From positions 1,736,001 through 1,800,000 of the forward strand of contig NZ_CP101824.1 of assembly GCF_024498195.1 (NCBI RefSeq): a stretch of DNA of 64,000 nt, written 5' to 3'. The translations under genes were made by a program, and so were the position numbers. This stretch comes from Halovivax cerinus. Lineage in GTDB: Archaea > Halobacteriota > Halobacteria > Halobacteriales > Natrialbaceae. A model generated the notes under the pieces. It was not told the DNA's origin and did no database searches. It worked only from the letters and a program-made list of their open reading frames with translations. Shown here in pieces: positions 12,863 through 64,000 of this stretch. The number at the start of each line of letters is the position of its first letter. Position 1 is the first letter of the stretch.

Positions 12863-13698
<836 letters not shown>

Positions 13699-30519: not shown

Positions 30520-32736
30520 ATGTTCAGGGCTCTCGACGGTACCGTTCCCCTCGCGACGAGCGAGGCGACCCGCGAGACGTACTGGGGGATCACGAGTACC
30601 GAATACGCGATCTTCTACCTCTTCGCGACGATCGCCATTCTCGTCTTCGCCTACGGCTTCGTGAGCCGGTTCGTTCGGTACGCACGCGCGTCTGAAGATC
30701 CGTTCCCGCGCGTCGACGAGATCCACGAGCGCGTCGTCGACGCCACGAAGATCGTCCTCACGAACGAGAAGCAGTTCAACCGCGACCTCTACGGCGGCCT
30801 GATGCACGCCTTCATCATGTGGGGTTTTCTGACGCTGTTCATCGCGACGGCGATCATCTTCGTCGACGATTATGCCGTCCAGAAGATCTTACACCAGCCG
30901 TCGGTCTGGATCGGCGAGTTCTACCTCTCGTATCAGTTCATCGTCGACGCCATGGGTCTGCTGTTCGTGGTCGGGCTCGGGATGGCGATCTACCGGCGGT
31001 ACTGGGTCGGCAACCACCGGTTGCTCGACCGCCACACCTCCCTCGAGGACGACGTCTTCGTCTGGACGCTCTTCTTCCTCGGCGCGGGCGGCTTCCTGCT
31101 CGAGGGCCTTCGCATCTACTCGATGGGCATCCCCGAGTTCGAACGCGTCAGTTTCGTCGGCTACGCGCTCGCACTCGCGTTCGAGGGAATGGGGCTGTCG
31201 ACGCTCGGGCCGGACGCGGCCGGCTTCAACATGAGCGGGTTCAACGTCGAGAACGTCCACTGGGCGATCTGGTGGCTCCACTCGCTGAACGCCTTCTTCT
31301 TCGTCGCGTGGATCCCCTACGCCAAGCCGTTCCACATGTTCTCCTCGTTCGCGAACGTCATTACGCGCGACGAGAAGGCGGGCAAGCGCCTGCCGAACGT
31401 CCCCTCGGATCTGGACGCGACGAACGCCGAGTCCATCGAGGATTTCACCTGGAAAGAGATGCTCGATCAGGACGCCTGTACGAAGTGCGGTCGCTGTTCG
31501 GCGGCCTGTCCGGCGAAGGCCTCGGATCGCCCGCTCGACCCCCGAAACGTCATCTTGGACCTGAAGAAATATCGCGAGGAACTCGACGCCGGCGAGACCG
31601 ACGAACAGCCGATCGTCGCCGACGGCGGGACGTCGGTCATCGATAGCGAGACGATGGAGTCCTGCATGGCCTGCATGGCCTGTATGGACGCCTGCCCCGT
31701 CGAGATCGAGCACTTGAAGAGCTTCACCAAGCTCAACCGTCAGCTGACCGACCAGGGTGACGTCCGCTCGTCCATGCAGGACGTCTTCCAGAACGTGATG
31801 CAGGACGGCAACACGTTCGGGAACAGCCCACGCAATCGGGCCGACTGGGCCGACGACCTCGAGTTCGACCTCACGGACGCTCGCGAGGAGTCCGTCGACT
31901 ATCTCTGGTACGTCGGCGACTACCCGAGTTACGACGAGCGGAACAAGCAAGTCGCGCGCTCGCTGGCGACGATCTTACAGGAAGCCGACGTCAGCTTCGG
32001 TATCCTCTTCGAGGACGAAAAGTACGACGGCAACGACATCCGCCGCGTCGGCGAGGAGTTCCTCTACGTCGAACTCGCGGGTCACCACGTCGAGACCTGG
32101 GCGGACTGCGACTTCGACAAGATCGTCTGTACCGATCCCCACTCCTACAACACGTTCGAGAACGAGTATCCGGAACTCGACTTCGAGGAGTTCGCCGACG
32201 ATCCGATGATGCCGTTCGAGTACACCGACGAGTGGAACGAAGACGGGGAGATCGACGTCTATCACTGGACGCAGGCCATCGAGGAACTCGTCACCGAAGG
32301 CAAACTCGATCTCACCGGCACGGAACTCGACTACACGGTCACCTACCACGATCCGTGTCACCTCGGGCGGTACAACGACGAGTACGAGGCCCCGCGGGAA
32401 CTCATCCGGGCGACCGGCGCCGACCTCCACGAGATGCCGCGCAACCGCGCGGACTCCTTCTGCTGCGGTGGCGGGGGCGGCGGCCTCTGGATGGACTTCG
32501 AGGAAGAGCCGAAGCCGAGCGAAGAACGCCTCCGCGAGGCCCTCGAAGACACCGAGGCCGGCTCGGCCGTCGAGAAGTTCGTCGTCGCCTGTCCGATGTG
32601 CATGACGATGTACGAGGACGGTCGCAAGACCGGCGGCTTCGAGGACGATATCGAGATCGTCGACGTCGCGGAACTGCTGGTCGAAGCGATCGGAAAAGCC
32701 GACGAGGCGAACGTCGAGATCGCGGCCGCGGACTAG
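30520..32736 (+). CDS. Membrane-bound HdrD/FadF-like Fe-S oxidoreductase
   Basis: The protein is 738 aa. The first ~270 residues contain about six transmembrane segments like a nitrate-reductase-gamma heme domain. Two 4Fe-4S ferredoxin motifs follow: CTKCGRCSAACP (about residue 319) and CMACMACMDACP (about 382). The C-terminal half has two CCG domains, marked by YHDPCHLGRYNDEYE, FCCGGGGGGLWMD and CPMCMTMYED. This layout matches FadF/HdrD-like proteins that pass electrons from electron-transfer flavoprotein or a thiol carrier to the quinone pool. No etf or acyl-CoA dehydrogenase gene is adjacent. It starts at an ATG with its own upstream region. Confidence 0.85.
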   Translation: MFRALDGTVPLATSEATRETYWGITSTEYAIFYLFATIAILVFAYGFVSRFVRYARASEDPFPRVDEIHERVVDATKIVLTNEKQFNRDLYGGLMHAFIMWGFLTLFIATAIIFVDDYAVQKILHQPSVWIGEFYLSYQFIVDAMGLLFVVGLGMAIYRRYWVGNHRLLDRHTSLEDDVFVWTLFFLGAGGFLLEGLRIYSMGIPEFERVSFVGYALALAFEGMGLSTLGPDAAGFNMSGFNVENVHWAIWWLHSLNAFFFVAWIPYAKPFHMFSSFANVITRDEKAGKRLPNVPSDLDATNAESIEDFTWKEMLDQDACTKCGRCSAACPAKASDRPLDPRNVILDLKKYREELDAGETDEQPIVADGGTSVIDSETMESCMACMACMDACPVEIEHLKSFTKLNRQLTDQGDVRSSMQDVFQNVMQDGNTFGNSPRNRADWADDLEFDLTDAREESVDYLWYVGDYPSYDERNKQVARSLATILQEADVSFGILFEDEKYDGNDIRRVGEEFLYVELAGHHVETWADCDFDKIVCTDPHSYNTFENEYPELDFEEFADDPMMPFEYTDEWNEDGEIDVYHWTQAIEELVTEGKLDLTGTELDYTVTYHDPCHLGRYNDEYEAPRELIRATGADLHEMPRNRADSFCCGGGGGGLWMDFEEEPKPSEERLREALEDTEAGSAVEKFVVACPMCMTMYEDGRKTGGFEDDIEIVDVAELLVEAIGKADEANVEIAAAD

Positions 32737-32902: not shown

Positions 32903-34536
32903 CTATGGATCGTCACAGCAGCCGTCCGCCGCTAACACCGCGTAGTCTGCAACCCAGCCGTTACGGAGATCTGGATCGCACCACTCGACGTAGTAGCCCT
33001 TCCAGGGGTCGCCGTTGATTTCACAGCAGGTGCCCTCGCGGATGACGCCCTTCGTTCGTTTCGGGATCTGTGTCGCCGTCTCGGCGCACGGTTCATCGTA
33101 GAGTGAGACGCTGTAGCCATACGTGGTGACGCACCGCCCCGGTTCGAACTCCAGGTCACAGTCGCAACAGCGGCCGGACCCGACCACAACCGCCCCGTCG
33201 ACCCACCCGTCGGGAAGGGTCGCGTCGCACCACTCAAGCGCGTAGCGCGGGCGTAACTCACCGTCGACCTCGCAACAGCGGCGGTCGACGATCACGGCTC
33301 GTGCTTCGACTGAGACCGGTTCGGTCGCGCATGCTGAGTCGAAGATCGGCGGTTCGTCGACACGAACCCGGACGCAGTCGTCGACGTCCCACTCGAACTC
33401 ACACGTATCGCAACAATCGCTCGACTGGACGAGGTCCGCCTCGCGGATCCACGAGACGGGGAGATTTGGGTCACACCACTCGACGTAGTAGCCCGGCGTC
33501 GGCCCGGCCGCGGCCTCGCAGCAGTCCCCCTCGAGAATGGTGGCTTGCATCCCCTGGGGAAGGTGTTCGAACGGCTCACCGGCACACTCCTCCTCGAAGA
33601 TCGGGACTCCGTCGGCCGCTGTCTCGACGCACGTTTCTGGGTCCCAGCGCGGTTCACACGCACCGCAGCAGCCGCTCGATTCGACGAGGTCCGCCTGTCG
33701 AATCCACGTGACCGGACGGTCAGGGTCACACCACTCGACGGAGTATCCCGGCGTCGGGCCGACCGGTCCCTCACAACAATCGCCTTCGAGAACGGTCGCT
33801 TGCAGTCCCTGTGGAAGTTGCTCCAGCGGCTCTTCGACGCACGCCTCCTCGAAGATCGGGACCCCGTCGACGGCGGTCTCGACGCACGTATCGGGCGTCC
33901 ATTGGGCTCGCAGTCGCCGCAGCAACCGTTCGACGCGGTGAGATCCGACTGGTCGACCCATCCAGGGGGCAACTCGCCGGTACACCACTCGACGAGGTAG
34001 CGCGGAACCAGGCCTCCGTCCCCCTCACAACAGACGCGTTCGTGGACGATCCCCCTCGCGCCGCTCGTCGTGACGGCCTGGGGATCCGTGGCGCATTCTT
34101 CCTCGTAGATGGGCACCTTGAAGCCGGTGGTTGCGACACAGGTTTCGACCGGCCACCGGAACGAGCAGGAGCCACAGCAGGACGGTGTCCGCTCTAGTGC
34201 TGCTTGGGCGACCAACCCATCGGGATAGTCCGCTTCGCACCACTCGACGTAGTAGTACACGTCGTTCTCCCCACAGCAGGTGTAGTCCCGAAGTAGCGCT
34301 TCCGTGCCGGCCGGAATGGTCGTCCCGCCGTCGTCGCCGCAGCCCTCGAGCAGTAGTGTGTCCTCGACGGTGACGGCGCACGCTTCGGGCTGCCAGCGCG
34401 GCTCACAGGCCGCGTTAGCGGAGGCGGTCGCTCCCGTGAGCCCCGTCGCTCCGACGCCAGCGGCGCCGACACGTCCGAGGACGTGCCGGCGGGAGACCTC
34501 TCCCCGTTCACTATCGGCGGTGCCTGTTGGTAACAT
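32903..34536 (-). pseudogene. Tat-exported Cys-rich six-repeat protein, frameshifted
   Basis: Start ATG 34536 gives a Tat signal (SRRHVLGRVGAAGVGATGL). Then come six repeats of ~78-80 aa, each with eight Cys: C-x-x-x-W/F-x-P/V-x-x-C, ...EEC, ...DCCE, ...YYVEWC, ...GWV..DL, ...CC. The frame breaks in repeat 3 at a run of three G on the plus strand (33904-33906). One extra base would restore CEPQWTPDTC and a continuous ~545-aa protein down to the stop at 32903. The AT-x-LEGDCCE...YYVEWC-D...W-I/V-ADL pattern resembles bacterial SH3 domains with added disulfides. It may be a real mutation or a homopolymer sequencing error. Function unknown, probably cell-surface. Confidence 0.75.
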
Positions 34537-34704
34537 CACGAAATCTAGGCTCCACAATCAACACTATAAAACCTCGGATCATATGTCTCTCCTACGACGC
34601 GGGTGACACCAATTGCGACTCAGACGGTCGCCGAATCGGTTCGCTCGACGAATCATCGAAGGTGACGTCTAAATTGAGAGTAGCGTCGATATCGTGCTTC
34701 TAGA

Positions 34705-34927: not shown

Positions 34928-35857
34928 ATGGAACGTGAGTACAGTCCCACCGAGTTGATGGATCGCGACTCGCGGTCGAACCGGTACTACCGGAACGCGG
35001 TCGAGCGCCACTGGGACCCCGCCGAGATCGGTCTGGAGACCGATCTCGAGAACCTGTGCGCCTACGCCGACGACGGCGACGACTTCGACCGGGCTGACCT
35101 GGACGCGCTCGTCACCGGCATCGCCAAGTTCGGGGCGGGCGAGGACGCCGTGACTGAGGATCTGGCGCCGCTCGGCGTCGTCCTCGACGATATCGACGAC
35201 CAGCTGTTCCTCACCACGCAGCTCTACGAAGAGGCGAAGCACGCCGACTTCTTCGATCGGTACTGGCGGACGGTCGTCTGGGGCGTCGAGGACCACCTCG
35301 GCTGGGAGCGGACGAGTCCGCGGGCCGAGCGGTGGTTCGACGACGCCTACCTCGAACTGTTCGAGCGGAATCGACGGGCCATGGACCGGCTCCTCGAGGA
35401 CGATACGCCCGAGAACCGCGCGTTCGCGTACTGTCACTATCACCTCACGGTCGAGGGCATCCTGGCCCAGACCGGCTACTACGGCATGAGTCGCTCCTTC
35501 GGCGGCGAGTTCGACGACCTGCCACAGCTTCCCGGCCTCGTAGAGGGGTTCGACCGTATTCGAAGCGACGAGGGGCGTCACGTCGGCTTCGGGATGAATC
35601 AGCTCAAGTCGCTCGTCGACGCTGGCCAGATCGCGCCGTCTCTGATCGAGGAGGTCGTCGCCGACCTCCTTCCGCTGGTCCAGAGAATCACCGAAGACGA
35701 TCGCTTCGCCCCAGAGGGGGACCCCGTCGGGCTCCAGCCGGGCGAACTCGCCACGTACGCGATGGAGAAACACGGACACCGTCTCACGCAGATCGCCGAC
35801 GCGTCAGCGGACGTTCCCGAGGTCGACGACCTCGTCTCGATCGACAGACCCGATTGA
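34928..35857 (+). CDS. R2-like ligand-binding oxidase (R2lox)
   Basis: This 309-aa ferritin-fold protein looks like ribonucleotide reductase R2 but lacks the R2 radical-transfer C-terminus. All six metal ligands can be read: E72 (GEDAV), E102 and H105 (YEEAKH), E176 (TVEGIL), E215 and H218 (DEGRH). V75 and Y171 sit exactly where R2lox proteins form the Val-Tyr ether crosslink (ligand +3 and ligand -5). R2lox enzymes assemble a Mn/Fe cofactor with a bound fatty acid. No nrdA-type gene is adjacent, supporting R2lox over NrdB. It is a single gene with ATG at 34928. Confidence 0.82.
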   Translation: MEREYSPTELMDRDSRSNRYYRNAVERHWDPAEIGLETDLENLCAYADDGDDFDRADLDALVTGIAKFGAGEDAVTEDLAPLGVVLDDIDDQLFLTTQLYEEAKHADFFDRYWRTVVWGVEDHLGWERTSPRAERWFDDAYLELFERNRRAMDRLLEDDTPENRAFAYCHYHLTVEGILAQTGYYGMSRSFGGEFDDLPQLPGLVEGFDRIRSDEGRHVGFGMNQLKSLVDAGQIAPSLIEEVVADLLPLVQRITEDDRFAPEGDPVGLQPGELATYAMEKHGHRLTQIADASADVPEVDDLVSIDRPD

Positions 35858-45813: not shown

Positions 45814-46099
45814 CGATTCATCCACTCCGTGGGGTCTTTCGACGAATCGAATCGCATCCACAGTGATCGTTCGCTCACCGTCGATGCAATTCTCTGGAGT
45901 GGTCTGGTCGACAGCTCAACTGGTTCGACACCACTCGTCGTCGAGGATCGTTCGTTTCGACGGTGCTTTGAACGATACTAACCGAGCCAGCCCTAATTCA
46001 TACGTATACTGATCATCGTCGTACAGACGATGCTGCTAGAACGTGACGACAGTGTGGACGGTGAAAGCGTAGGGCGAGATACGGTGTTCTGTACGTAGT

Positions 46100-46582
46100 A
46101 TGTCTTCAGGAAAGTCAAAGGGCGTAGACGAGATTTTCTGTCGGTCCTGTGGAGAACCTATCAAGAAGCGAGCGGAACTGTGCCCCCACTGTGGCGTTCG
46201 AAACGAGCACGGAGGTGGCTCGTCTCCGCGTGGGGCAGTATCGAGTCCACCGTCGACACCTCACGACCCATCGCAGTACGAGACGACCGTCTCTGAAACG
46301 TGGTGGTACGGAGTGGCTGGTGGAACTGCGTTGTGGGTATTCGTTTTTATTTTGGCCGCCGCGGTGGGTGATAGTCTGGGCGCGTTCGGTGGATTCTTGA
46401 TCTTCGTCGCCTGGATAGGGTTACCAGCCGCCGCATACTTCGATATGCAATATATACGTGCGAACGGGAAGTGGAATCCAAATACCGTTCTCTGGATCAT
46501 CCTGCTCGCACTGTGGTTGGTTAACATCGTTGCCGGCGCAGTGTACCTCTACCGCCGACACGAGGTGCTTGGCCAACCGTAG
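46100..46582 (+). CDS. Zinc-ribbon membrane protein
   Basis: The protein is 160 aa. Residues 14-34 form a rubredoxin-like zinc ribbon (FCRSCGEPIKKRAELCPHCG). After a Ser/Pro linker come three hydrophobic segments (about 70-90, 92-112 and 128-150). Small zinc-ribbon plus membrane proteins are common in archaea and mostly uncharacterised. The ATG is preceded by a reasonable upstream A/T-rich element. It is the last chromosomal-looking gene before the mobile island. Confidence 0.8.
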   Translation: MSSGKSKGVDEIFCRSCGEPIKKRAELCPHCGVRNEHGGGSSPRGAVSSPPSTPHDPSQYETTVSETWWYGVAGGTALWVFVFILAAAVGDSLGAFGGFLIFVAWIGLPAAAYFDMQYIRANGKWNPNTVLWIILLALWLVNIVAGAVYLYRRHEVLGQP

Positions 46583-47055
46583 ACGAGTCTCTATAGCGTC
46601 GGGGGGTACCTCCTTCGGTGGCACGACTGTTCCGTACGCCACAACGGAGACACATCGGTCAGCACTCGTGGGTCCGGCAACGAGCGGTACGCCGTATTGG
46701 GTTTATATTCCACACACACACACACACTTCATCTATCGCTCGTTGTAGAACACGGACCTGACGGGGTGTCCGCCGACCAGTTGTCTTCGCACGCAGTGAA
46801 TTCTAATCGCGGGGGCCGTACCCGCTCGCGGTACTCTCCCGACCGGTAGAGATGGGGCTTCCCGGATGTGAACCACGCCGAGACGTTCCTGCTCGGCCTT
46901 CGGCCTGCGCGGGCTGCGACTCGTCTACTTCAAATCCGATCGAGAGCATGTTTGTGACGAACGGCTCGCTCCGCTCGCCGTTTTGTTCGTCACAAACATG
47001 CCGCCTCCCGGATATATACCAAGAGTTCAAATGCCTACCGATTCTAAATTAGAGT
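46583..47055. repeat. Gap at the left edge of the island: (CA)8 tract and 17-bp inverted repeat
   Basis: No gene in ~470 bases. A (CA)8 tract lies at 46711-46726. GCATGTTTGTGACGAAC at 46946-46962 pairs perfectly with 46985-47001 around a 22-base loop that contains a second CGGC/GCCG-type stem, 55 bases upstream of the integrase ATG. The sequence at 46864-46882 read on the minus strand (GGTTCACATCCGGGAAGCCCC) recalls a tRNA T-arm but does not fold as one. Confidence 0.6.
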
Positions 47056-48315
47056 ATGCCAAGGTTGCCACCCAAGATCGAAACACTCCACACCCGGATT
47101 GAGAGTTCGGAGACACTGTCACCAGAGGATAAAGACGCCCTCCTCAAATTCTCCTCAGAGCTCGGGGTTCACAACTACTCCGAAGGTCGGTGGACAAAGC
47201 TCCTCCAGCACTGCACGATGATGGCTGGTGATTCGTCCAAATACTCCTCAGATGAACTACCTGAGCCAGATTTAGTAGACATCATCGGAGATTCGGAGAC
47301 GGAGAAAGACGCCGCGAAGAAATACGTCAGTTGGATCAACGCGACCTACGATAGTGAAGAATCGAAGCGTGACCATCGAGTCGCGCTTCGAGTGTTTGGT
47401 GGGCACCTATCAGCAGGGGATTACGAGGAAGAGAAACCATCGAGCGTCGAGTGGATCTCAGCCGACCTCCCTAGAGACTACGATCCAAAACCAGACCCGA
47501 CGAAGATGTGGTGGTGGGACGACCACATAGTTCCCGTTCTGAACAACGCTAAGTACGCACGCAATAAGGCGGCGGTCGCTGTAGACTGGGATGCTGGCCC
47601 ACGATCGGGGGAGTTCCGTGGGCTCACTGTCGGTGACGTTAGTGATCACAAGTACGGGATGGAGATCACCGTGGATGGGAAGCAGGGCCGCCGCTCGGTT
47701 GTACTTATCTCATCAGTTCCATACCTCAAACGCTGGTTAGAGGTTCATCCGCGGGGTAACGAGCCTGACGCGCCGCTTTGGTCGGACTTGGATACTGGGC
47801 GGGAGGTGAGTTACAACATGAAGTTGAAGATGCTCCGGGCACCCGTCAAACGAGCCGTCGATAATGGCGATCTCAGGAAACCGTCGAAGATGGAATTCAC
47901 TCGGATGCGGAAGTCTTCCGCCAGTTATCTCGCGCGAAAGAACGTGTCACAGAACCATATTGAGAACCATCACGGGTGGGTCAAAAATAGCGATGAAGCT
48001 CGACGATACATCGATGTGTTCCGAGAGGACACTGCTCGTGAAGTTGCCCGAGCGCACGGTGTAGATGTTTCGGAGGATGAAATCGAGTCGATCGGACCAG
48101 TACAGTGTCCTCGATGTCAACGCGAAACACCCAGGGGCGAAGTCCAGTGTATGTGGTGTGGTCAGGCGTTGAGTCAAAAAGGTGTCGAGAGGCTCGAAGA
48201 ACGGAGAGAACGCCTGTTCGACTCTGCCCTTGAAGCAGAAGGCGACATGAAAGAACGTGTCAAGAGCATCCAAAGCGAGATCGAAGAGCTCCGTTCACTA
48301 GGACTTGAAATATAA
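47056..48315 (+). CDS. Tyrosine recombinase/integrase with C-terminal zinc ribbon
   Basis: The protein is 419 aa. The N-terminal half is a SAM-like core-binding domain. DAGPRSGEFRGLTVGDV carries the first catalytic Arg. Later come RMRKSSASYLARKNV (second Arg), ENHHGW (His) and EARRYIDVF (nucleophile Tyr). The usual HxxR His is replaced by Thr/Arg. After this, CPRC and CMWC form a zinc ribbon, followed by a coiled coil (RLEERRERLFDSAL to EELRSLGLEI). It is the first gene of the A/T-richer island and preceded by a strong inverted repeat. Likely role: integration or excision of the element. Confidence 0.85.
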   Translation: MPRLPPKIETLHTRIESSETLSPEDKDALLKFSSELGVHNYSEGRWTKLLQHCTMMAGDSSKYSSDELPEPDLVDIIGDSETEKDAAKKYVSWINATYDSEESKRDHRVALRVFGGHLSAGDYEEEKPSSVEWISADLPRDYDPKPDPTKMWWWDDHIVPVLNNAKYARNKAAVAVDWDAGPRSGEFRGLTVGDVSDHKYGMEITVDGKQGRRSVVLISSVPYLKRWLEVHPRGNEPDAPLWSDLDTGREVSYNMKLKMLRAPVKRAVDNGDLRKPSKMEFTRMRKSSASYLARKNVSQNHIENHHGWVKNSDEARRYIDVFREDTAREVARAHGVDVSEDEIESIGPVQCPRCQRETPRGEVQCMWCGQALSQKGVERLEERRERLFDSALEAEGDMKERVKSIQSEIEELRSLGLEI

Positions 48316-48915
48316 TAATATATTAATTCAATGTAATCATTTACTTCAGGAACCAATTCTGTTCGCGCTTGTATCACAACCCTGGTATGAATCTCCGTCT
48401 GTTCGTTTTCGATGTGCAGTCTCTCACAAACGAACTAATTCAGTAAATCTAGAATCGGCATACGGCGGTGGGGTAATATTTCATGAGATTTCGATAGTTA
48501 ACTGACTCACCTAAATTCGATAGATGGCATTTCCGGCTATGATTTCGGAGGGTCCACAAGCCACCAAACTTCCATGGTAAGGGAACTGGTAGTATGGCGT
48601 GGCCAGACTACTGAAGCTAAGATAGGTTACCCTGGTTTCGGACCAACGAGAATCATAGTGTTTCATAGCGCGAGGACGGTATCGGGATCGTTGACGTTAT
48701 TCAATAAGTCAGGTCTCATGGGTCGAGATACCAAGCACCTCAGATCAACCGGCGTCGAAATCAAACCCTCTCAGATGACATGAAGCGTGCCGAACGCGAT
48801 ATCGTTTCTGATCAGATCACTCGATGAAACACGTCTACTACTGAGGCTCTCTCAAGAGATTTTCAGATATCAGCAACCAATGCGAGTGAGTATGCTTACG
48901 TCTCCATCAGAGAAA
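48316..48915. other. 600-base A/T-rich gap inside the island
   Basis: Frames up to ~69 codons are present on both strands but none has family features, a good start context or a neighbour-linked arrangement. This may be decayed mobile DNA between two convergent recombinase genes. Confidence 0.4.
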
Positions 48916-50271
48916 CTACGCGTGGGTGTCGTAATCCTGAATCTTGGACTGTCCGTCGAGTTGTGACTCTTGATCCAATTCGGCTCGGAGCTCAGCAGGT
49001 ATTTCATCGAGATCGAGAACGTCACCGAAATATTGTCGCCCGAGTTCCCGAACGTGATTCCGGTTCTCGACGTTATCGAGATAGTTCTTTTCGTCAACGC
49101 CGGGAGTTTTCGTCCCACCCTCTTCTGACACGAATTTGATCTGATCTCGGTTTTCGTGTAGTGCTCTCTTATATAGTGTCTTCCAGAATTGCCGAAAATT
49201 CTGGATGGTCGGGAATGATCCATCGTCTAATCGAATATCGGCGATCTTACATAACTCCTCCAGCCAATTGTTCAAGGTGGAAGCTCGTCGGGACCCAGAG
49301 GAAGATTGGGGACTGGGGATTAGTTTTCCATTCCCACCAGTCGACTCGATGTAGTCAACGTAGAGTTCAAGCAACCTAGCACCAGTCATTATCGGGACTT
49401 TGTCGGGTCCTTCGTTCCGTCTCAGATTCTTTCGCTCGTCGAACTGGACGTAGGGATCATCACCGAAGTGAAGCTGCGTTCTAACATCGAGTTTTTCGAC
49501 CTCACTTGACCGAGGGCCGACGGCGATTAAAAAGACGAGGAGCACCTTCATCCAGAGCCGCCATTGATCCAAATCGTAGTCCCTCACAGGACAATCCCTA
49601 ATGGCATTTAACGTATTCCACAGAGCCTTCAGTTGTGCTTCAGTTACAGGCTGCGGCTCATTTTCACTCCGATACCACTCAAACTCATCTAATGCTTCTG
49701 TGACCGGATTGAGATTGATGGGGTATCTATTTTTCACTATATTATAGTATTCTTCGAAGTAGAAAGGATAATTCCCCATCGTGCTGTCTGCCAGATTACG
49801 ATCCATGTACTCGATGATGGTGATCGTATGCTGAATATTCTCCACGCGTTCCTTCTCAGAATTGTAGACACCAAGGTCTAGTAACTCTATACCGAGACCT
49901 TCCTCTCTGATCGCCTCGTACACTTTGTTCATCACCGACCTAACGGAATCAATGGTTTTCTCGCTCCACCCTCGTCGATCCTGAGCACTATTGACGTAGT
50001 ATTCAAGAGACTGAATGGTTTCTTCATCATTGGTGGGCCATTTCCCCGTATTGCGAACACCAAACCCCTGTTCTCGAAGAAATTCGAGAAGAGTCTGGCC
50101 GTACAATTCTTTGGACTTGTTGTTCAGACCTTCCGCAGAATACCGGGTGTGCGCGGTAATGTACTCCCAGGAGGGCTCGTGGTCGCGCGGTAGTCCATCT
50201 AACTGAAATTGCTCGTGAAGGACCGCCGGCAACTGTTCTTCGAGTGTTTTCTGGTCGATACGTGATCTCAT
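48916..50271 (-). CDS. Site-specific integrase, haloarchaeal element/virus type
   Basis: The protein is 451 aa. The N-terminal ~200 residues are helical and resemble a SAM-like arm-binding domain (KSKELYGQTLLEFLREQG). The catalytic half includes FLIAVGPRSSEVEKLDV (first Arg), NFRQFWKTLYKRAL (second Arg, with Asn in place of the His of HxxR) and EKNYLDN (likely nucleophile Tyr). The motif is therefore divergent. Its ATG overlaps the stop of a 53-codon gene by four bases (ATGA), and a wHTH gene is divergent upstream, an arrangement I associate with SNJ2-like integrase modules. Confidence 0.75.
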   Translation of the reverse strand: MRSRIDQKTLEEQLPAVLHEQFQLDGLPRDHEPSWEYITAHTRYSAEGLNNKSKELYGQTLLEFLREQGFGVRNTGKWPTNDEETIQSLEYYVNSAQDRRGWSEKTIDSVRSVMNKVYEAIREEGLGIELLDLGVYNSEKERVENIQHTITIIEYMDRNLADSTMGNYPFYFEEYYNIVKNRYPINLNPVTEALDEFEWYRSENEPQPVTEAQLKALWNTLNAIRDCPVRDYDLDQWRLWMKVLLVFLIAVGPRSSEVEKLDVRTQLHFGDDPYVQFDERKNLRRNEGPDKVPIMTGARLLELYVDYIESTGGNGKLIPSPQSSSGSRRASTLNNWLEELCKIADIRLDDGSFPTIQNFRQFWKTLYKRALHENRDQIKFVSEEGGTKTPGVDEKNYLDNVENRNHVRELGRQYFGDVLDLDEIPAELRAELDQESQLDGQSKIQDYDTHA

Positions 50272-50429
50272 TCTGAGCAGTCACCTCGTGCTCGATCCAA
50301 TTCTTCTAAAATGCGTTCGGCGTCGTAGGCGAACGGGAGATCACTCGCTGCGAGTGCCTCCAAATCATCTCGTAAGTCCTCTGCCGTGTCGATGGCCGAC
50401 TGGTATGGGTCGGTCGCCTCAGAACTCAT
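50268..50429 (-). CDS. Small acidic protein translationally coupled to the integrase
   Basis: This 53-aa ORF begins ATG 50429 with MSSEATDPYQSAIDTAEDLR, continues through LEALAASDLPFAYDAERILE and ends CSE at 50268. Its stop overlaps the integrase start in ATGA, implying translational coupling. It is all-helical and strongly acidic with no hydrophobic segment. The product could be a partner or directionality factor for the recombinase. It is shorter than most ORF cut-offs and easy to miss. Confidence 0.7.
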   Translation of the reverse strand: MSSEATDPYQSAIDTAEDLRDDLEALAASDLPFAYDAERILEELDRARGDCSE

Positions 50430-50554
50430 GCCGATCCCGGACACCTCTGTTTGGCCAGTTGTAGCTCAATATCATATCGGTTCTAATTTTGAGTGTATAG
50501 CAGTTTGAATCACTGTAAGTTAAAACCTTGGAGCCACAAGAGAAGGATAACAAT

Positions 50555-51067
50555 ATGCCGAACAACTCTGACGATGAAAGGGAGACTATTGGTAATTTAG
50601 AGGAAAGTAGCAACTCGGGCTCTGTATACCCTGATGATGGCGATATGAGCGTAGACGATACGTCATATGCAGAGCCAGATGAAATCCCTGAGAGAGAACT
50701 CGATACCGCGAAAATCAGCGACTTCTTCGAAAAGAAAGGGGCTGTCGAAATCCTCGCTCACCTCGCTGACGGCCCCAAGCGATTCAATGAGATCGATGGT
50801 GCCCTCGTAGTAAGTCATGGGACAGTTTCCAGTCGTCTCACTGAGGGTGCCAGAATTGGCCTCTGGAAGGAGTATTTCTACTACCCCGACGACGGTGGGA
50901 AAATCAAACTGTATCAACTCAACACTGAAGCGGAAGAATTTGCCGAGCTAGCGCAAAAAGAAGACATTGTCGAAACAATGAAACGCAAACGCCAAGCCAC
51001 CCAACAACATGACCAGGCAGTCTCGAACTTTCAGGAGGAGATCGCATCAGGCGACTCCGAGGAGTAG
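50555..51067 (+). CDS. Winged helix-turn-helix regulator
   Basis: The protein is 170 aa from the ATG at 50555. A TTG at 50528 could add nine residues. The first ~55 residues are acidic and disordered. The wHTH follows: ISDFFEKKGAVEILAHLADG, FNEIDGALVVSHGTVSSRL (recognition helix) and a wing YYPDDGGKIKLYQLN. The last 40 residues are a charged helix. It is divergent from the small-protein/integrase pair, so probably controls excision or its own promoter in the 125 bases between them. Confidence 0.8.
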   Translation: MPNNSDDERETIGNLEESSNSGSVYPDDGDMSVDDTSYAEPDEIPERELDTAKISDFFEKKGAVEILAHLADGPKRFNEIDGALVVSHGTVSSRLTEGARIGLWKEYFYYPDDGGKIKLYQLNTEAEEFAELAQKEDIVETMKRKRQATQQHDQAVSNFQEEIASGDSEE

Positions 51068-51232
51068 TTCACCAGTCTGCTGGGTCTACAGTGCAAAGGA
51101 TCACTTCCTACATCACTCCGTTCTACCTTACCTAGCAATTGGCAGACGAGATCGTCCCGCCCTCAATTGGTCGGATCTCACCATTGGTCCCTCCTTGTGG
51201 GAAACTAAGTGTACTCCTTGATTCTTGTCTCT

Positions 51233-51300
51233 ATGGACTCACACGTCGGTGTTGATTGGGCAAGCGGATCATGGGTCGTTGTCTTGCTTTCACTTTTCAC
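51233..51300 (+). pseudogene. DUF429-like N-terminal remnant
   Basis: A frame from the ATG at 51233 begins MDSHVGVDWASGSWVVVLLS. The V-G-V-D-x-A-S-G-x-W-V-V pattern is the opening beta strands of DUF429/RNase-H-like proteins. After about 20 residues it becomes basic and unrelated. DUF429 proteins are ~230 aa, so if real this is a small fragment. Low certainty. Confidence 0.35.
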
Positions 51301-51404
51301 AGCGAGGTGGTGTCAAGTCAGGGCTCGCATTCGTAGACGGGGCCGAAAGAGGGGCCTGTTGTCTGAGGAAGTTGCCATGCAAGATGCGCGGCCCTTGATT
51401 ACGA

Positions 51405-51746
51405 TTACTGGTCGTTTGCAGCGGGTGTCCCTGTTGCATTGAGTGCGGAATTGAGCTCGAAAAGCTCCTGCACGACTGGACTATCGGCAACTCGGTATCG
51501 GGTTGGTGATGTCTCTGGAACTTCCTCGATTAATTCGACGTCGATGAGCACAGGTAGATGTGAAGTGATCGTCTCTTGGGCGAGGCCGGCGTGCTCTGCG
51601 AACTCGTCAACGTCGAATTCGCGCGACGGAGGATAGTCGAGTAACGCGTCAATGAGGAGCGGGACGTTGTCGTGCTGGAAGAGGTAGAGGATCCCGCTGG
51701 GGTGCTGGTACCGAATGTTTGCCTTATCTCCGGGGTCTTCGACCAT
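51405..51746 (-). CDS. Small wHTH transcriptional regulator
   Basis: The protein is 113 aa. IRYQHPSGILYLFQHDNVPL leads into a winged-helix: LLIDALLDYPPSREFDVDEF (first helices), AGLAQETITSHLPVLIDVEL (recognition helix) and YRVADSPVVQELFEL (wing and last helix). It is typical of haloarchaeal plasmid and provirus regulators. Neighbours are fragments and a SHOCT protein, so its targets are not clear. Confidence 0.75.
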   Translation of the reverse strand: MVEDPGDKANIRYQHPSGILYLFQHDNVPLLIDALLDYPPSREFDVDEFAEHAGLAQETITSHLPVLIDVELIEEVPETSPTRYRVADSPVVQELFELNSALNATGTPAANDQ

Positions 51747-51929
51747 TGTTCTGAAGATATGTTGCCTGCGTGATTAAAGTTACTAGTGTAGTAACACTAA
51801 TTCGCGTGTTGCTGGACCAGTGTCAGGCCATCTGTAGCTGGCCTCTGGGGACATACAATCGGAACCAAACCCTCACTCTTCTAAAGCAGGTCCACTCCTC
51901 TATCACGTTTCCTCTACTTCCGATCAAGA

Positions 51930-52313
51930 TTATATTCTGCGCAAGATCCGCTTTTTCTGCTCTTCGAACTCTGATCTCGTGAGTATGTTATCGTCTTTCA
52001 ACCCTTCGAGCTCTCGTAGCAACTCCAAGGTTGAGTGGGCGTTGGACCGATCGAACGTCTGACTGCCTTGTTCCTCCCTGCTTCCGGTATCGTCGAGGGC
52101 AACGATATTCTCCTTCTCAGGCTCTTGGCCGATTGGGAGTATGTGTTTACGGGAGTGTGAGGAGTAGTCTTCTTTCGAGCACATTGGTAGCCACCGTTCA
52201 CAGCTCAGGCAGAGTCGTCTGTAGGCGTTCCCAGGTCGGCAACTTTGCTCGATTCGCTTATCGAGTACCGGGACCACGTTCGTCAGATTACAGTATCGGC
52301 ACTGGTCTTGCAT
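51930..52313 (-). CDS. Zinc-finger plus SHOCT-domain protein
   Basis: The protein is 127 aa. N-terminal CRYCNLTNVVPVLDKRIEQSC then CLSCERWLPMC gives two Cys pairs that can hold zinc. The C-terminal LRELEGLKDDNILTRSEFEE and KKRILRRI is a SHOCT motif (short amphipathic helix pair often used for oligomerisation). It is typical of mobile-element genes of unknown role. The next supported gene is divergent, with about 170 bases between starts. Confidence 0.7.
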   Translation of the reverse strand: MQDQCRYCNLTNVVPVLDKRIEQSCRPGNAYRRLCLSCERWLPMCSKEDYSSHSRKHILPIGQEPEKENIVALDDTGSREEQGSQTFDRSNAHSTLELLRELEGLKDDNILTRSEFEEQKKRILRRI

Positions 52314-52482
52314 ACTAATCGAACCGAATGAAGCTCGGACCGCGGCCAGATCAATGTATTGTCGTGGGGGATGACTTTCGGAGAGGTTGGATCACTACGG
52401 CCGTCGAAGCCGAAAATCGATACAGAGATCCCCTGCCGAGTTGCGCACAGATTTTTATCACGATGTTCCGATTGGTGCGCAC

Positions 52483-52836
52483 ATGGACGACGGAACGAAA
52501 CCCACCGAAGAATACGACGATACGGTCTCCGTCCGTTTACTCCCCGAGAGTGGCGGTACGGAAGACATTCCGTGTTCTTCGTACACAGAGGCGATCCGGG
52601 TCGTGAGAGCAGAGCAAGAGGCGGTCCCAGCCGCTAAAATCGTCGATCGGGACGGTGAAGTGGTGTTCACATCTGCCGATATGGATATCGACGATTGGGA
52701 AGTCGAGTGGAAACAGGCAAAACGCCGGCTGTCGGTTGATGTCGAAGTGTACGATTGCCCCTACGACAGTGTCGCCTGTTTCGCCGACGATCTTTGTGTC
52801 CAGTGTAAGATGGACAAAGTCCAGAATCAGTACTGA
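52483..52836 (+). CDS. Hypothetical acidic protein with C-terminal Cys cluster
   Basis: The protein is 117 aa from the ATG at 52483. An upstream in-frame ATG at 52387 is less likely because the added part is basic. The first 90 residues form an alpha/beta unit (YDDTVSVRLLPESG, AIRVVRAEQEAVPAAKIVDR, MDIDDWEVEWKQAKRRLSV). The C-terminus has Cys residues in YDCPYDSVACFADDLCVQCK that may bind zinc. Not recognised. It stands upstream of the restriction-modification operon without obvious coupling. Confidence 0.6.
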   Translation: MDDGTKPTEEYDDTVSVRLLPESGGTEDIPCSSYTEAIRVVRAEQEAVPAAKIVDRDGEVVFTSADMDIDDWEVEWKQAKRRLSVDVEVYDCPYDSVACFADDLCVQCKMDKVQNQY

Positions 52837-53113
52837 CAGTGTGAGTGGGGCTAAGCCAGAATGGCGGTGATAGTCCGTCAATTATCGTCGTCCAACAGAC
52901 CTATTGGCGTAATTCTGAGATCAAGCATCTCGGGGGACATATCACAACCAGAGTTCGAGGAAGCTAGCTTCCTGCCTCACTAGCGTCTCATGATATTGTT
53001 TATATTAGCCTCGAACCACCAATAGCCCAAGCAGTTGTCAAAGCTGAAAGTCAAAACCGATATTTGATTGTCCGGGAGAAAGTATTAGTTCCCCTCCCTC
53101 GCAGTCAAAGTTA

Positions 53114-55120
53114 GTGAACGAAGCCGAATTCACCGACGAGGTTAGACAGAAACTTGCTGACCTCTATGGTTCCGAGCGTATTGGTGTGGGTCATTCACTC
53201 GCAAATACGAGACTCAGACCTGATTTAATCATTTACGAAACTCCAGAGAGGGGTAGTATTTTTATAGTTGTTGAGGTGAAAATAGGGAACGAGAGCAACG
53301 AACGTTTCCGGAGCGGGCGCCAGCAACTGATTGAGTATCTTCAGAACACCGAGGCACAGTATGGAGCTGTGCTGACGCCCACTATTGATCATATTTTCAG
53401 TTATGGGTCTTCTGACGAAGAACCAACAATTCTCTCTTCATTTCCTGGCACGCAGGCCAACAACGGAAGCCGGCCGCTGGACTCCGCAGTCGAAGCTAGA
53501 TTCTTACTACGTCAGCTATTGGATGACCTCGAAGTTCACGACCCATACAACTATGGATCCGAACTGAAATCCGACATATTTTTAGCGCTTCTTTATCAGT
53601 TGATCGCCGAAAGAGAGGGGATCCAAATTGACGTTTCCAGCGAACTTGAAGACCAATTAGAGGAACTTCAGAATCCCCTCAAATCATATTTCACGACGCT
53701 AGAAGACATCGACATTGCACCGAGTGATATAGAGACAATCAGAGCAACAATCAATTACTTCGGGAGTTTCGAACTTTCCCAGACTTCCGCAGATGTGGCG
53801 TCTGGCTTTTTTGACGAGCTCGTAGGACGGACAGAGCTTGGGCCTGAACAACTTTCGCGGAAAGTCGCTCGCCCAATGGTTGATTTCGCAGAGGTTGAAT
53901 CAAATGATCGAGTACTTGACCCCGCTAGCGGTTTCGGAGTTCTCTGCCGTGAAGCCGCTAGTCGAGGAGCGAGTGTTACCGGTGTAGAAATTAGCGAGAG
54001 TGCGACGATAGTCGCTGTTTTCCTCAACGAACTTGGAAAGCAGAGTAGTTCTGTGGAGACTGTCTGTGCTGACTTCTTTGATTGGAGCTCAAACGACCAA
54101 ACAGCATCCGATTCTAGCCAAACGCGATTGGGGTCCCATGGTTCAGGTTCTAACTCAGATAATACTGGTAGTTCTGGTGGGAGTGAATTGTTTGAGCATA
54201 TCGTACTGAATCCGCCAATTGGTGACCGGATTTCTGCTGACCGTATTCCTGAACTCCACAGTTCAAGAAGTCGAATTCGGATTGAAGAGGGATTTATTGC
54301 GCGCGCATTATCGCTGCTTAAAGAGGGCGGCACACTAGTCGCTCTGGTTCCCGAATACATTCTTGCAGGGGATCAATCAAGAAATCTCCGAAATTATCTT
54401 CTTCACCAAGCCACAGTAGAAGCCATCATCACGTTTGGTGGAGGTGTTTTCTCTGATGTCAGCTTTAGGGGGGCTGTTATTCGAATCCGTAAATCACGGT
54501 CTCCGTCACATCAAGCGATTGCTACGGTGGATGTCTCTTCCGATTCAGACCAAAATGGACCAAATGACATCTCTACTGCAATCAAGATGGTTGATGATGA
54601 TCGTGCCGACGTCATCCAAATTAACCCCCAAGAGATTCGGACACTTCTCCCGTCTCAAATACAGGGTGAACGAGATGTTCTGGATGAGCTATACAGTCAG
54701 TACGACGCAGTCACCAAGTTGGAGGAGGTCGCGGCTATTGAGTCCGGGACAACGAGAGAGCCAGAGCAAAATGACACCGGCCTTCCATATCTTGACACAA
54801 CCCGTGAGGTCGACATCGGGGATTTATCTCTCCGATCACCCGATGACGTATCCACGGTTGCTACCCCAACAGACGTTCTAATATCGGTCAAAGGCGGAGA
54901 TACTAATGTCCGTCGAGTTGAACGCGACGTCATTCCCTCCTCAAGGTGGGCTGTAGTCAAGTTTGATTCTGACCAGCGGGCTGGCCAGTATCAGTCATTT
55001 TTCGAATCTGAACTGGGGAATAAAATCCTAGAGGCAAATCGAACCGGGAGCGCGATTAGGTATATTACAATAAGTGCATTGCGCGATCTTCCCGTACCGG
55101 ATTTCTCTACGGGGGTGTGA
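53114..55120 (+). CDS. Single-chain nuclease + N6-adenine DNA methyltransferase (type I/IIG-like)
   Basis: The protein is 668 aa from a GTG at 53114. Residues ~1-60 form a PD-(D/E)xK-like nuclease domain (RPDLIIYETPERG, with D37, then IFIVVEVK with E54 and K56). A helical linker follows. The gamma/HsdM-type methyltransferase has SAM motif I at residue 267 (VLDPASGFG) and catalytic motif IV N366-PPI, where NPPY/F is usual, so the fourth position is atypical. The last ~170 residues (AVTKLEEVAAIESGTT, LISVKGGDTNVRR) resemble a target-recognition S half. It could modify and restrict DNA from one polypeptide. It heads a three-gene operon with 4-base spacing to the next gene. Confidence 0.75.
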   Translation: MNEAEFTDEVRQKLADLYGSERIGVGHSLANTRLRPDLIIYETPERGSIFIVVEVKIGNESNERFRSGRQQLIEYLQNTEAQYGAVLTPTIDHIFSYGSSDEEPTILSSFPGTQANNGSRPLDSAVEARFLLRQLLDDLEVHDPYNYGSELKSDIFLALLYQLIAEREGIQIDVSSELEDQLEELQNPLKSYFTTLEDIDIAPSDIETIRATINYFGSFELSQTSADVASGFFDELVGRTELGPEQLSRKVARPMVDFAEVESNDRVLDPASGFGVLCREAASRGASVTGVEISESATIVAVFLNELGKQSSSVETVCADFFDWSSNDQTASDSSQTRLGSHGSGSNSDNTGSSGGSELFEHIVLNPPIGDRISADRIPELHSSRSRIRIEEGFIARALSLLKEGGTLVALVPEYILAGDQSRNLRNYLLHQATVEAIITFGGGVFSDVSFRGAVIRIRKSRSPSHQAIATVDVSSDSDQNGPNDISTAIKMVDDDRADVIQINPQEIRTLLPSQIQGERDVLDELYSQYDAVTKLEEVAAIESGTTREPEQNDTGLPYLDTTREVDIGDLSLRSPDDVSTVATPTDVLISVKGGDTNVRRVERDVIPSSRWAVVKFDSDQRAGQYQSFFESELGNKILEANRTGSAIRYITISALRDLPVPDFSTGV

Positions 55121-55124
55121 ACAG

Positions 55125-55907
55125 ATGGTGTTCGACACTTACACACCGAGTCAATTACTCGATGAACAAATCGAAGACACCCAGGAAGTCGCAGAGACGA
55201 TTATCATCGATGAATTGGAGGAGGGGCCAATCCGGGAAGACTTTGAGAATGCTTTCGCGTCTGCAGTAGAACTAACCCATGCTTCAACTAGTAATAATTC
55301 TGTGGGCCAAGCACTATATTCGAATATAAAACAAATAATAGGTGCGAGTATTCGGCATCAAGGATTCTATGATATGTTGGAATACGAACTTGACCAACAT
55401 AATGACAACGTTGTCAATCTTGTCAGGTGGTTCCGATTGTACGCGAGTGTCTATCTAGAGGAACGGATCAAATTTGAGCAAGAGTTCGTCCTACATCCAT
55501 TTAAGAAGTACCGTGATGATCAAGAACATCCTGGGGAAGAAGGCCCAACAGCCACACCAGGCCAACCCGATCCTCTGCTCACTAGCATGCTGAATTTAAT
55601 TTGGAAAGTGATAGAACAGATTTTGGATTTGTGGCTGCGGATCCTAGAAATGGGTGAGTTCCAGAAATTAGCTAAAGAGGGAGAATTGCTTGGTGAGGAA
55701 GACTATGATGTCGGGTTTGTTGATGTGATCCATGATGACCAAAAAGAGGGTAGGATTAAGACCTACTCACAGGCGGAGCTCGGATACCGGACGAAGTTCA
55801 AGGCACCTCTGGATTTCTTCCCCTCGGAAGGGGACATCGTTAAAGTATACCCCTCTGAGAATCCGCGCAATGAGCCGGCTGACGGTGTCCAGCTGTACGA
55901 TCCATGA
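55125..55907 (+). CDS. Unknown middle gene of the RM-CARF operon
   Basis: The protein is 260 aa from the ATG at 55125, only 4 bases after the methyltransferase stop. Residues ~1-140 are helical and highly charged. Residues ~145-185 contain an amphipathic or membrane-leaning stretch (LLTSMLNLIWKVIEQILDLW). The C-terminus reads as a small beta domain (VDVIHDDQKEGRIKTYSQAE, FPSEGDIVKVYPSEN). I recognise no family. Its stop overlaps the ATG of the CARF-wHTH gene (ATGA), so the three products are almost surely made together. It might be an effector, a specificity factor or a scaffold. Confidence 0.7.
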   Translation: MVFDTYTPSQLLDEQIEDTQEVAETIIIDELEEGPIREDFENAFASAVELTHASTSNNSVGQALYSNIKQIIGASIRHQGFYDMLEYELDQHNDNVVNLVRWFRLYASVYLEERIKFEQEFVLHPFKKYRDDQEHPGEEGPTATPGQPDPLLTSMLNLIWKVIEQILDLWLRILEMGEFQKLAKEGELLGEEDYDVGFVDVIHDDQKEGRIKTYSQAELGYRTKFKAPLDFFPSEGDIVKVYPSENPRNEPADGVQLYDP

Positions 55908-56554
55908 GTGTACATATTGTTCCTCATGGACGGGCAACAGAGCATATCCACCGGGGTCTCCGAGCATTTGGAAGTGTTGAAACGATATACCTTCTCACAA
56001 GTGACGCCTTCCTAAGTACAGGAGAGGAACTGTCGTCGGATCTTGATCAGTTCGGTTATGAGGTCCATCGGCGAACAATTGATGCCTTTGACCTTCGTGA
56101 TGTAGTAGATACAATTGTGAACATCGCAAAGGAGAATCCGGGCAAAGAGATGTACATCAATATAACGGGAGGTACCAATCTCGTTGCTGGAGGCTCGACG
56201 TCGTCTGCCTTCTTTATCGGTGCCACACCATACTATGTACTGGAACCCCAGAATGGCGAAGAATCTATTGATGATCTCGTGATGCGGCTTCCAACGCCAA
56301 AACAACCCCTCACCTTTGAGATTGACGGACTCCAACGAGAGGTGTTGACAATTGTTGGTCGGTGGGATCAACAAGGCCGTACGGGAGTAATTTACCGGGA
56401 TATCGGGGAGGAACTTGGGGAAACCCCTCAAAAAATCAGCTACCACGTTAATCGACTGGTTGACCATGGACTCCTTGAAACAGAAAATGAAGGTCGCAGC
56501 AAACAGGTATACTTGACAGATATGGGGAGATTATATCTTTCTTGGACAGCTTGA
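55904..56554 (+). CDS. CARF-like (HFX_2341/Csa3-type) domain with C-terminal wHTH
   Basis: The protein is 216 aa. The N-terminal ~125 residues form a Rossmann-like unit opening VHIVPHGRATEHIHRGLRAF and containing YINITGGTNLVAGG (residues 84-97), the glycine-rich loop typical of CARF and the haloarchaeal HFX_2341/DUF6293 group. Residues ~145-216 form a winged helix (LQREVLTIVGRWDQQGRTGV, PQKISYHVNRLVDHGLLE). CARF proteins sense cyclic oligonucleotides or related ligands. Whether this one binds any is unknown. It ends the operon and likely regulates it. Distinct from CRISPR loci, as no repeats or cas genes are here. Confidence 0.7.
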   Translation: MSVHIVPHGRATEHIHRGLRAFGSVETIYLLTSDAFLSTGEELSSDLDQFGYEVHRRTIDAFDLRDVVDTIVNIAKENPGKEMYINITGGTNLVAGGSTSSAFFIGATPYYVLEPQNGEESIDDLVMRLPTPKQPLTFEIDGLQREVLTIVGRWDQQGRTGVIYRDIGEELGETPQKISYHVNRLVDHGLLETENEGRSKQVYLTDMGRLYLSWTA

Positions 56555-56573
56555 CCTGTCTATTCCATACTAA

Positions 56574-56816
56574 TCACCAATACGTCCGGGATTGTGCCTG
56601 CTGGCAATAGGACTCCAGTAACTTTACACCGAGTGCTATACCACCGCCGACACTTGTTTCGATTGGCCCTGCAATCTCGACAGAGAACGTTTTAACGAGC
56701 GTGATCGACTCCAAGGGTCCAACAGAAAGCAGAGTGTCGAACACCATAGTCCACAGTTCTTCACAGAAGTAAATGAGGGCGCTTCCTAATAGAAAATTTT
56801 CACCTTTTCCCTCCAT
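56574..56816 (-). CDS. Hypothetical 80-aa protein
   Basis: Convergent with the CARF-wHTH gene. Begins MEGKGENFLLGSALIYFCEE, with a hydrophobic-aromatic N-terminal third and a second hydrophobic patch (VGGGIALGVKLLESY). It starts at an ATG with GGTAG just upstream on the minus strand. No family recognised. It may be real or a chance frame in A/T-rich DNA. Confidence 0.4.
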   Translation of the reverse strand: MEGKGENFLLGSALIYFCEELWTMVFDTLLSVGPLESITLVKTFSVEIAGPIETSVGGGIALGVKLLESYCQQAQSRTYW

Positions 56817-56857
56817 CTACCAATTCTTCTTCGAAGGATTGGTTGGCTATAGGTTTG

Positions 56858-56961
56858 AACTTTGGAGTCTATTTGTGGACTCCAAAGTTAAGGTGGTCGA
56901 GGTCTATATCTGTATATAAAGAGGCTACCTCGAAATGGGTAATTCTGCAAACTCCAAAGTT
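56858..56961. promoter_or_regulatory. 12-bp inverted repeat plus third copy around the recombinase promoter
   Basis: AACTTTGGAGTC (56858-56869) and GACTCCAAAGTT (56878-56889) form a perfect 12-bp inverted repeat with an 8-base spacer. A third copy AACTCCAAAGTT lies inside the gene at 56950-56961 (11 of 12 match). Between them is a strong TATATAAA (56913-56920), about 15-22 bases before the ATG, implying a leaderless mRNA. The three copies look like autoregulatory operators or recombinase arm/core sites. Confidence 0.7.
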
Positions 56962-57552
56962 CGTGCGAAAGTATGGGTGACACCCGACCAAGTTGAGGCA
57001 CTCCGATCAATATGCTACGTGACTGGCGCGGAATACCTCCAACAGCGCAACGAGGCGATCATCGCGTTCATGTACGATACTGGGCTCCGCGTTGGAGAAT
57101 TGGTTCAGGTTGACAAGACATTGCTTCGGAACGGAAACTCGGAACTCTATCTCCCGACAGACATCCAGAAGGATTACCCGAACGAAAACTCGCCTCCACC
57201 AGTGACCCTCTCTCTATCGAAGGACTCGGCGCGATTGCTTTCGGCATATCTCAACTCCCGATGGAAAGACCCGCACGCACTCTATCCGTCTCGATCCTCA
57301 GATCGAATTTCTGAACAGGGCGTTCGAAATATGCTTCACAAAATCGCAGAGGAAGCAGAGGTTCGTCCATACAAGATTGATGGCACCCGAGGTAACGCCA
57401 CTGACGTGACGCCGCACGCACTCCGACATGGCGTTGCCTACAGAATGATGAACGAAGAAGACGAAAACACGCTCTACGACGTCCGAAATAGATTACGTCA
57501 CCGAAGTATTCAGACCACTGAACGGATCTACGACCATATGCTGAAGGTCTGA
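56935..57552 (+). CDS. Compact tyrosine recombinase (catalytic domain only)
   Basis: This 205-aa protein keeps only the catalytic half of the family. TGLRVGELVQVD holds the first Arg, the Lys is probably in DIQKDYP, TPHALRHGVAYRMM gives HxxR, and NRLRHRSIQTTERIYDHML gives the last His and the nucleophile Tyr. The catalytic set is thus complete although the core-binding N-terminal domain is absent. It is flanked by repeated AACTCCAAAGTT sequences, which may be its recognition sites. It is the third recombinase of the island. Confidence 0.88.
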   Translation: MGNSANSKVRAKVWVTPDQVEALRSICYVTGAEYLQQRNEAIIAFMYDTGLRVGELVQVDKTLLRNGNSELYLPTDIQKDYPNENSPPPVTLSLSKDSARLLSAYLNSRWKDPHALYPSRSSDRISEQGVRNMLHKIAEEAEVRPYKIDGTRGNATDVTPHALRHGVAYRMMNEEDENTLYDVRNRLRHRSIQTTERIYDHMLKV

Positions 57553-57692
57553 CTTAGACCAGGGAAGGTAGGAGTATGTTTGCAATCTCTCAGGGTTTTC
57601 GATTGGAACGATTCACTCGAATATGAAGCCACGCAAAGTGGAGATCCAGCGGAACAAACCTATTTACTCGATGATCCGTGAAGTTCAGGCAA

Positions 57693-62258: not shown

Positions 62259-62354
62259 CTGGGCCCGAAATCGCTACGTCCCCCAGTTACAAATTCCCTT
62301 CCTCACCAGACCGTTTCACACTCGTGAGAGTGACGCGTTCTACCGATATACCGC

Positions 62355-63086
62355 TCACCCATCGGAGCCACGACGAACCGGCCCAAGTCGCGTGATCTTC
62401 CCGTCCTCAACAAGCCGTTCAAGTCCGTCTCGCCTCGGGAATCCGAAGGTCCCCGTTTCGACAGTTCGCCCAGGGGCAACGCAGCGAAAGTACTTCCCGT
62501 ACGGGTCTTCCGCAAGAATCCGGCGTTGACACCCAGCCAAGTCGAACATACCAAGATCATACGCGCCGTCTCGCTGAGAAATATATGCCGCACCGCTCCG
62601 ATACCCGAGGTGATCCCGGGCTACGAACTCCCCCATTGACTCCACCGGGAACGCGTAATTCTTGAACGTTAATGGGTCACCCACTGCCAACGTGTCATTC
62701 AACGGATCGTACTCACCGAACCGGAACGGGCGCTCTAATTCCGGAAAGAGTGCCTCTCGGGCATCGCGCATCTGATCTCGGTGGTCGGTATGGAACACCC
62801 AGTGAATCACGAATCCCAGACGCAACGCCTCCCGCGTTTTCTCGCGGTACGGTTGATCAGAGCCAGCAACGAATTCGATCCACCAATTCAACCTGTCGCC
62901 AAGCACAAAACAATCCGGGACGCGATCAGCAACCGTTCTTTCGAACCGATACTCCCCTGGAAACCACGGCTCCCGTTCAGCCTTCCGTCGACGATCCAAC
63001 TCTACTTTCGGCCACAAATGCTTCTCCGATTCCTTCCCCGCCGTTCGAAACCGATCGACATCACCCCAAATCTCGAATGAAGTCAT
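62355..63086 (-). CDS. CoiA-like nuclease-fold protein
   Basis: The protein is 243 aa. WPKVELDRRRKAEREPWFPG leads to TVADRVPDCFVLGDRLNWWI then EFVAGSDQPYREKTREALRL. This D58...E71 arrangement with the following IHWVFH resembles the CoiA/PD-(D/E)xK-type nuclease domain of competence-related proteins. It is the last gene of a tightly packed operon and convergent with the STAND gene (about 95 bases between stops). It could process incoming DNA of the element or act in defence. The assignment is by motif only. Confidence 0.5.
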   Translation of the reverse strand: MTSFEIWGDVDRFRTAGKESEKHLWPKVELDRRRKAEREPWFPGEYRFERTVADRVPDCFVLGDRLNWWIEFVAGSDQPYREKTREALRLGFVIHWVFHTDHRDQMRDAREALFPELERPFRFGEYDPLNDTLAVGDPLTFKNYAFPVESMGEFVARDHLGYRSGAAYISQRDGAYDLGMFDLAGCQRRILAEDPYGKYFRCVAPGRTVETGTFGFPRRDGLERLVEDGKITRLGPVRRGSDG

Positions 63087-63093
63087 GCCTCAC

Positions 63094-63898: not shown

Positions 63899-64000
63899 TT
63901 GTAATACATTTCAATTAATCGATTGTCGATGGGTTTCTGCGTCGTTTGTATTGAGTTGGTTATGGACTCTTTCACAACCCTGTGGATCACCCGATCCGGG

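Follow-up and report, generated by a model that had tools for sequence, protein, structure and literature searches.

The window, a 64,000-nucleotide stretch of the Halovivax cerinus genome (a single 3.9 Mb contig), carries on its minus strand, from 34536 to 32903, a gene that can be read as an ATG start with a twin-arginine (Tat) signal peptide followed by nothing but six tandem Cys-rich units. Two plus-strand genes flank it and lie outside the system described here. The features of the locus are as follows.

30520–32736, plus strand: flanking gene, a 4Fe-4S / CCG-domain oxidoreductase, conserved in all five Halovivax species
34928–35857, plus strand: flanking gene, an R2-like ligand-binding oxidase type protein
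34560–34571, minus strand: TATA-box-like element TTTTATAGTGTT, about 30 nt upstream of the ATG
34411–34536, minus strand: ATG start and Tat signal peptide (SRRHVLG ... ASANA/A), from sequence reading
34168–34407, minus strand: unit 1, 80 aa, eight Cys (unit count, profile matches)
33913–34167, minus strand: unit 2, 85 aa, eight Cys (unit count, profile matches)
33659–33912, minus strand: unit 3, 85 aa, eight Cys summed across the frame break; the relatives are in frame here
33904–33906: the single frame break, GGG on the plus strand (frame reading, three-way DNA alignment)
33404–33658, minus strand: unit 4, 85 aa, eight Cys; structure predicted for this unit
33161–33403, minus strand: unit 5, 81 aa, eight Cys (profile matches)
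32903–33160, minus strand: unit 6, 85 aa, eight Cys, with the stop codon; missing in H. asiaticus

The sequence-only reading of this locus had given units of about 79 aa with eight Cys each and 48 in total; the Cys count holds exactly, and the measured lengths are 80–85 aa. These Cys make up 9.6% of a mature chain of about 501 aa, against a median of 0.8% in 279 non-overlapping ORFs from the surrounding 400 kb. The eight positions, which include two CC pairs and form clusters of the type CC ... WC ... CC, recur identically in all units of three Halovivax species, so the pattern is not a product of chance, and a one-unit profile recovers all six units in the window (E = 1e-37 to 7e-27). The twin-arginine motif and an AxA cleavage site are plainly legible, in line with the Tat export that had been claimed, and TAT signal models give weak matches below their cut-off; Tat export is a strongly supported prediction. 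The six units alone fill the mature chain, which has no catalytic Pfam match. The protein sequence shows no surface anchor, and a secreted protein of this kind may simply diffuse away. Upstream of the gene, TTTATAGTGTT is identical in the window, in H. asiaticus, and in a further Halovivax genome (G261), within surroundings that differ, and a TATA-like promoter element belonging to the Cys-rich gene itself is strongly supported by this sequence comparison.

The reading frame is broken once. Frame 0 encodes the Tat signal, units 1 and 2, and the first residues of unit 3; the remainder of unit 3 and units 4–6 follow undamaged in the other frame, between 33904 and the stop codon at 32903–32905. 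A mechanical listing returns two ORFs, one of 421 aa, about 200 aa of which are a frame-shifted tail, and one of 361 aa that lacks the signal. A lone break at this GGG, with clean continuation in the other frame, is what had been read from the letters, and our analysis confirms it as the only one. The search for homologues with an intact frame, proposed as a check, was also successful, since H. asiaticus and G261 are free of the break at the same site. In every pairwise comparison among the three Halovivax genes, and on both sides of the break, dN/dS is 0.14–0.24; purifying selection on the gene is strongly supported. The intact orthologues, the dN/dS values, and the conserved TATA element together indicate that the gene is real and that its break is either recent, as a loss of function, or an error of the sequence or assembly. 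On the break, as a question separate from function, we give slightly less than an even chance to the idea that it stems from an error in sequencing or assembly and that the strain shares the working gene of its relatives: selection is purifying in both halves, no further stop or shift occurs in 333 codons, and two relatives have the gene unbroken, but the rest of the assembly is of good quality (one other apparent split among 109 well-matched genes from 400 kb) and a run of three bases is not a typical site of homopolymer error. The other apparent split is artefactual and arises from a start placed too far upstream; the idea that the assembly suffers from indels in general was rejected, as no further true split occurs among these genes. 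A programmed frameshift was likewise rejected, because the site has no canonical slippery heptamer and the two intact relatives are read without a shift. Were the break real, the protein would be lost, or at most units 1 and 2 plus the frame-shifted tail would be exported.

The intact genes of H. asiaticus (five units, without unit 6) and G261 (six units) sit between the same two flanking genes as the window gene. Between the window and H. asiaticus, dS is 0.24–0.29 in units 1–3 and 0.96–1.10 in units 4–5, with values of 0.35 and 0.42 in the flanking genes. This abrupt step in synonymous divergence at the unit 3/4 border (window 33161–34407) suggests intragenic recombination, and the gene is probably a mosaic whose 3′ part was exchanged in one lineage near that border. 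In G164, the same slot holds a pair of open frames, in which a weak ribbon-helix-helix match precedes a PIN-domain protein (E = 8e-11), and a similar PIN-type frame occupies the slot in G377; a PIN-type toxin-antitoxin-like pair is thus present in G164 and apparently in G377 (L017:8330–9036 and L137:6573–7004). The behaviour of the Cys-rich gene is that of an accessory gene occupying a chromosomal slot whose contents are exchangeable.

The structure of unit 4 was predicted with AlphaFold2 from an alignment of 17 units (pLDDT 93.2, pTM 0.82). The model consists of beta strands apart from a short helix that precedes the final one, as in SH3 domains, and a small SH3-like beta barrel is strongly supported as the predicted fold of the unit. 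Foldseek searches of the PDB return mostly SH3b and SH3 domains (TMq about 0.4–0.62, probability mostly >0.9) with E-values of 0.06–0.4, values above 0.01 being normal for small barrels; the matches include the SH3b domains of YrvJ (9a7d) and of the NlpC/P60-type endopeptidases 2evr, 2hbw, and 3npf, as well as InlB (1m9s), all at TMq 0.56–0.62 and probability 0.96–1.00. In a viral structure library, the unit model matches SH3, CHAP-domain, and endolysin proteins. The earlier proposal that the units are SH3-like is therefore borne out by the predicted fold and its structural matches. The stable scaffold suggested along with it is not, as far as rigidity is concerned: a four-unit model has nearly the same strand order in each unit, but the mutual orientation of the units is undefined (pTM 0.39), and the five models, built on a shallow alignment, vary widely.

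Up to E = 10, direct sequence comparison with SH3_3 (PF08239) matches neither half of the gene and none of 16 units. Against a small profile of haloarchaeal SH3_3, the best unit scores 15.7 bits versus a maximum of 11.7 bits among 4554 shuffled units; in the reverse direction, the units show no excess over shuffles, and hhalign places units and SH3_3 in the expected register with marginal significance (P = 0.005, probability 7%). Of 61 genomes from the same family, 8 (two other Halovivax included) have SH3_3 itself above the Pfam cut-off; it sits mostly on proteins of hydrolase-like character, of which many are Tat-exported. The statement of the sequence-only reading that such a combination is unfamiliar from haloarchaea was thus too strong; what is unusual is the eight-Cys tandem form without an enzyme, which belongs to no domain-library family, its novelty being reduced because SH3b domains already occur in haloarchaea. 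The window protein resembles the haloarchaeal SH3_3 proteins of amidase_2, M23, and NlpC/P60 type in its predicted fold, in Tat export (common to many of them), in having tandem copies, and in a weak, marginal in-register profile match over the second half (motif ...VEW..D...GW). It differs from them in lacking a Pfam match and a catalytic domain and in having eight Cys per unit and six copies. Eight Tat-exported haloarchaeal proteins (L128, L129, L130, L131, L132, L133, L135, and L136) combine amidase_2- or M23-like parts with one to four SH3_3-like domains; they are candidate bacteria-directed hydrolases, the Pfam comparison covering L136.

The tandem form occurs in three of the five Halovivax species in our set, and when proteins were searched in 392 genomes of the order, all matches fell within this genus. 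The unit profile adds single-domain Tat-exported proteins from three genomes of another genus (L021–L023, E = 1.6e-4 to 1.5e-3), and a second-round profile run on 125 genomes of the family adds one more (L141, E = 8e-6), each of them matched before its inclusion in the profile. Beyond Halovivax, the relatives are thus a single Tat-exported domain with 2–4 Cys in four other genomes of the family. A weak profile match in G034 (L024) was dropped as a shadow of a large ORF that runs on the opposite strand, as were most further search matches, in which the similarity was limited to the Tat signal. A pattern scan over contigs of 84,980 species, sensitive to close relatives only, matched H. asiaticus alone. 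Plasmids, phages, and viral contigs yielded no relatives, which leaves an origin in a mobile element unsupported. Sequence searches of Pfam, NCBIfam, and the PDB, run with each half, with single units, and with the unit profile, gave no meaningful match, and the literature held nothing specific on Cys-rich or SH3 secreted haloarchaeal proteins.

The single-domain relatives share C25 and C46 with the window protein in addition to the profile match, and differ from it in having one domain and no tandem. Equivalents of C25 and C46 are the only Cys in L141 (2 Cys), L021–L023 add C10 and C83 (4 Cys), and the Halovivax units have all eight, a series that suggests a stepwise gain from 2 to 4 to 8. 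That the number per unit is even and conserved points, if only as a suggestion, to disulfide pairing. On the simplest reading of the alignment, a core disulfide C25–C46 would have come first, followed by an end clamp joining C10 to C82 or C83, and then by two more, so that four disulfides per unit (C25–C46, C10–C82/C83, and a lineage-specific set) would close outside the cell. Alternatively, the Cys clusters could bind metal or exchange thiols outside the cell. The eight conserved Cys with two CC pairs per unit would suit such a metal- or redox-active protein, as would the Tat route, which can export folded cofactor proteins. Most exported haloarchaeal proteins, however, travel by Tat without a cofactor, and relatives with 2 or 4 Cys fit the stepwise addition of structural disulfides better than the loss of a metal site; we regard this alternative as quite improbable. 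The Cys content also brings to mind a halocin-like antimicrobial precursor, given that precursors of the halocin C8 type leave the cell by Tat and have a Cys-rich part, and that a halocin C8-like candidate lies in the same window. The likeness to halocin C8-like proteins (TIGR04449) ends with Tat export and Cys richness: the model does not match the window protein, whose architecture is a different one, with six equal domains filling the mature chain rather than a precursor with a processed peptide. An antimicrobial precursor is accordingly a very improbable explanation.

SH3b domains, bacterial as well as haloarchaeal, serve mostly as binding modules on wall hydrolases. As haloarchaeal SH3b domains sit on exported enzymes of wall-hydrolase type, a binding role fits the fold, and as the enzyme is missing and the module multiplied, a multivalent binder is our best guess. 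We put about even odds on the window protein being an exported, non-enzymatic, disulfide-stabilised surface binder, a putative role in which the protein would fold before or during Tat export and a row of SH3b-like modules would hold a repeated ligand on an outside surface by avidity, without cutting it. The putative ligand could belong to the cell itself (S-layer or glycans) or to neighbouring bacteria (their wall). The GW/SH3-like repeats of InlB are surface-binding SH3-like modules without an enzyme and are not Cys-rich; they match in fold (1m9s) and have no sequence match with the window protein. A rival reading, which we consider unlikely, takes the protein for a peptidoglycan-hydrolase-type weapon reduced to its wall-binding part, deprived of its enzyme and sticking to neighbouring bacteria. 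The family's normal SH3b domains do sit on Tat-exported amidase_2, M23, and NlpC/P60-type proteins, and archaeal peptidoglycan hydrolases able to kill bacteria are documented (PMC12352652); against this, there is no catalytic domain in the protein or adjacent to it, and the eight-Cys units are distant from those normal domains.

The most far-reaching reading, to which we assign a probability of roughly 0.4, is that in this haloarchaeal lineage an SH3b domain became a disulfide-locked module (with 0 or 2, 4, then 8 Cys), that six such modules were strung together as an enzyme-free secreted binder found in no domain library, and that the gene is an accessory one, exchanged in a chromosomal slot that holds a toxin-antitoxin-like pair in sister species. 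If this is true, an undescribed cysteine-armoured form of a bacterial-type SH3 module would join the archaeal secretome, and the graded series of 2, 4, and 8 Cys would allow the build-up of disulfides in a small barrel to be followed. A protein with 48 Cys also raises the question of how oxidation proceeds on the Tat route, an exporter of folded proteins. The frame break as such is of minor importance.

Elsewhere in the window, the minus-strand gene at 12895–13698 encodes a 267-aa Tat-exported protein with a Cys-rich C terminus, to which the halocin C8 model aligns over its full length below the cut-off (E = 0.18), making it a possible divergent halocin C8-like precursor. From 46001 to 64000, the G+C content drops from about 0.65 to 0.48–0.57, and this part of the window is possibly an island.
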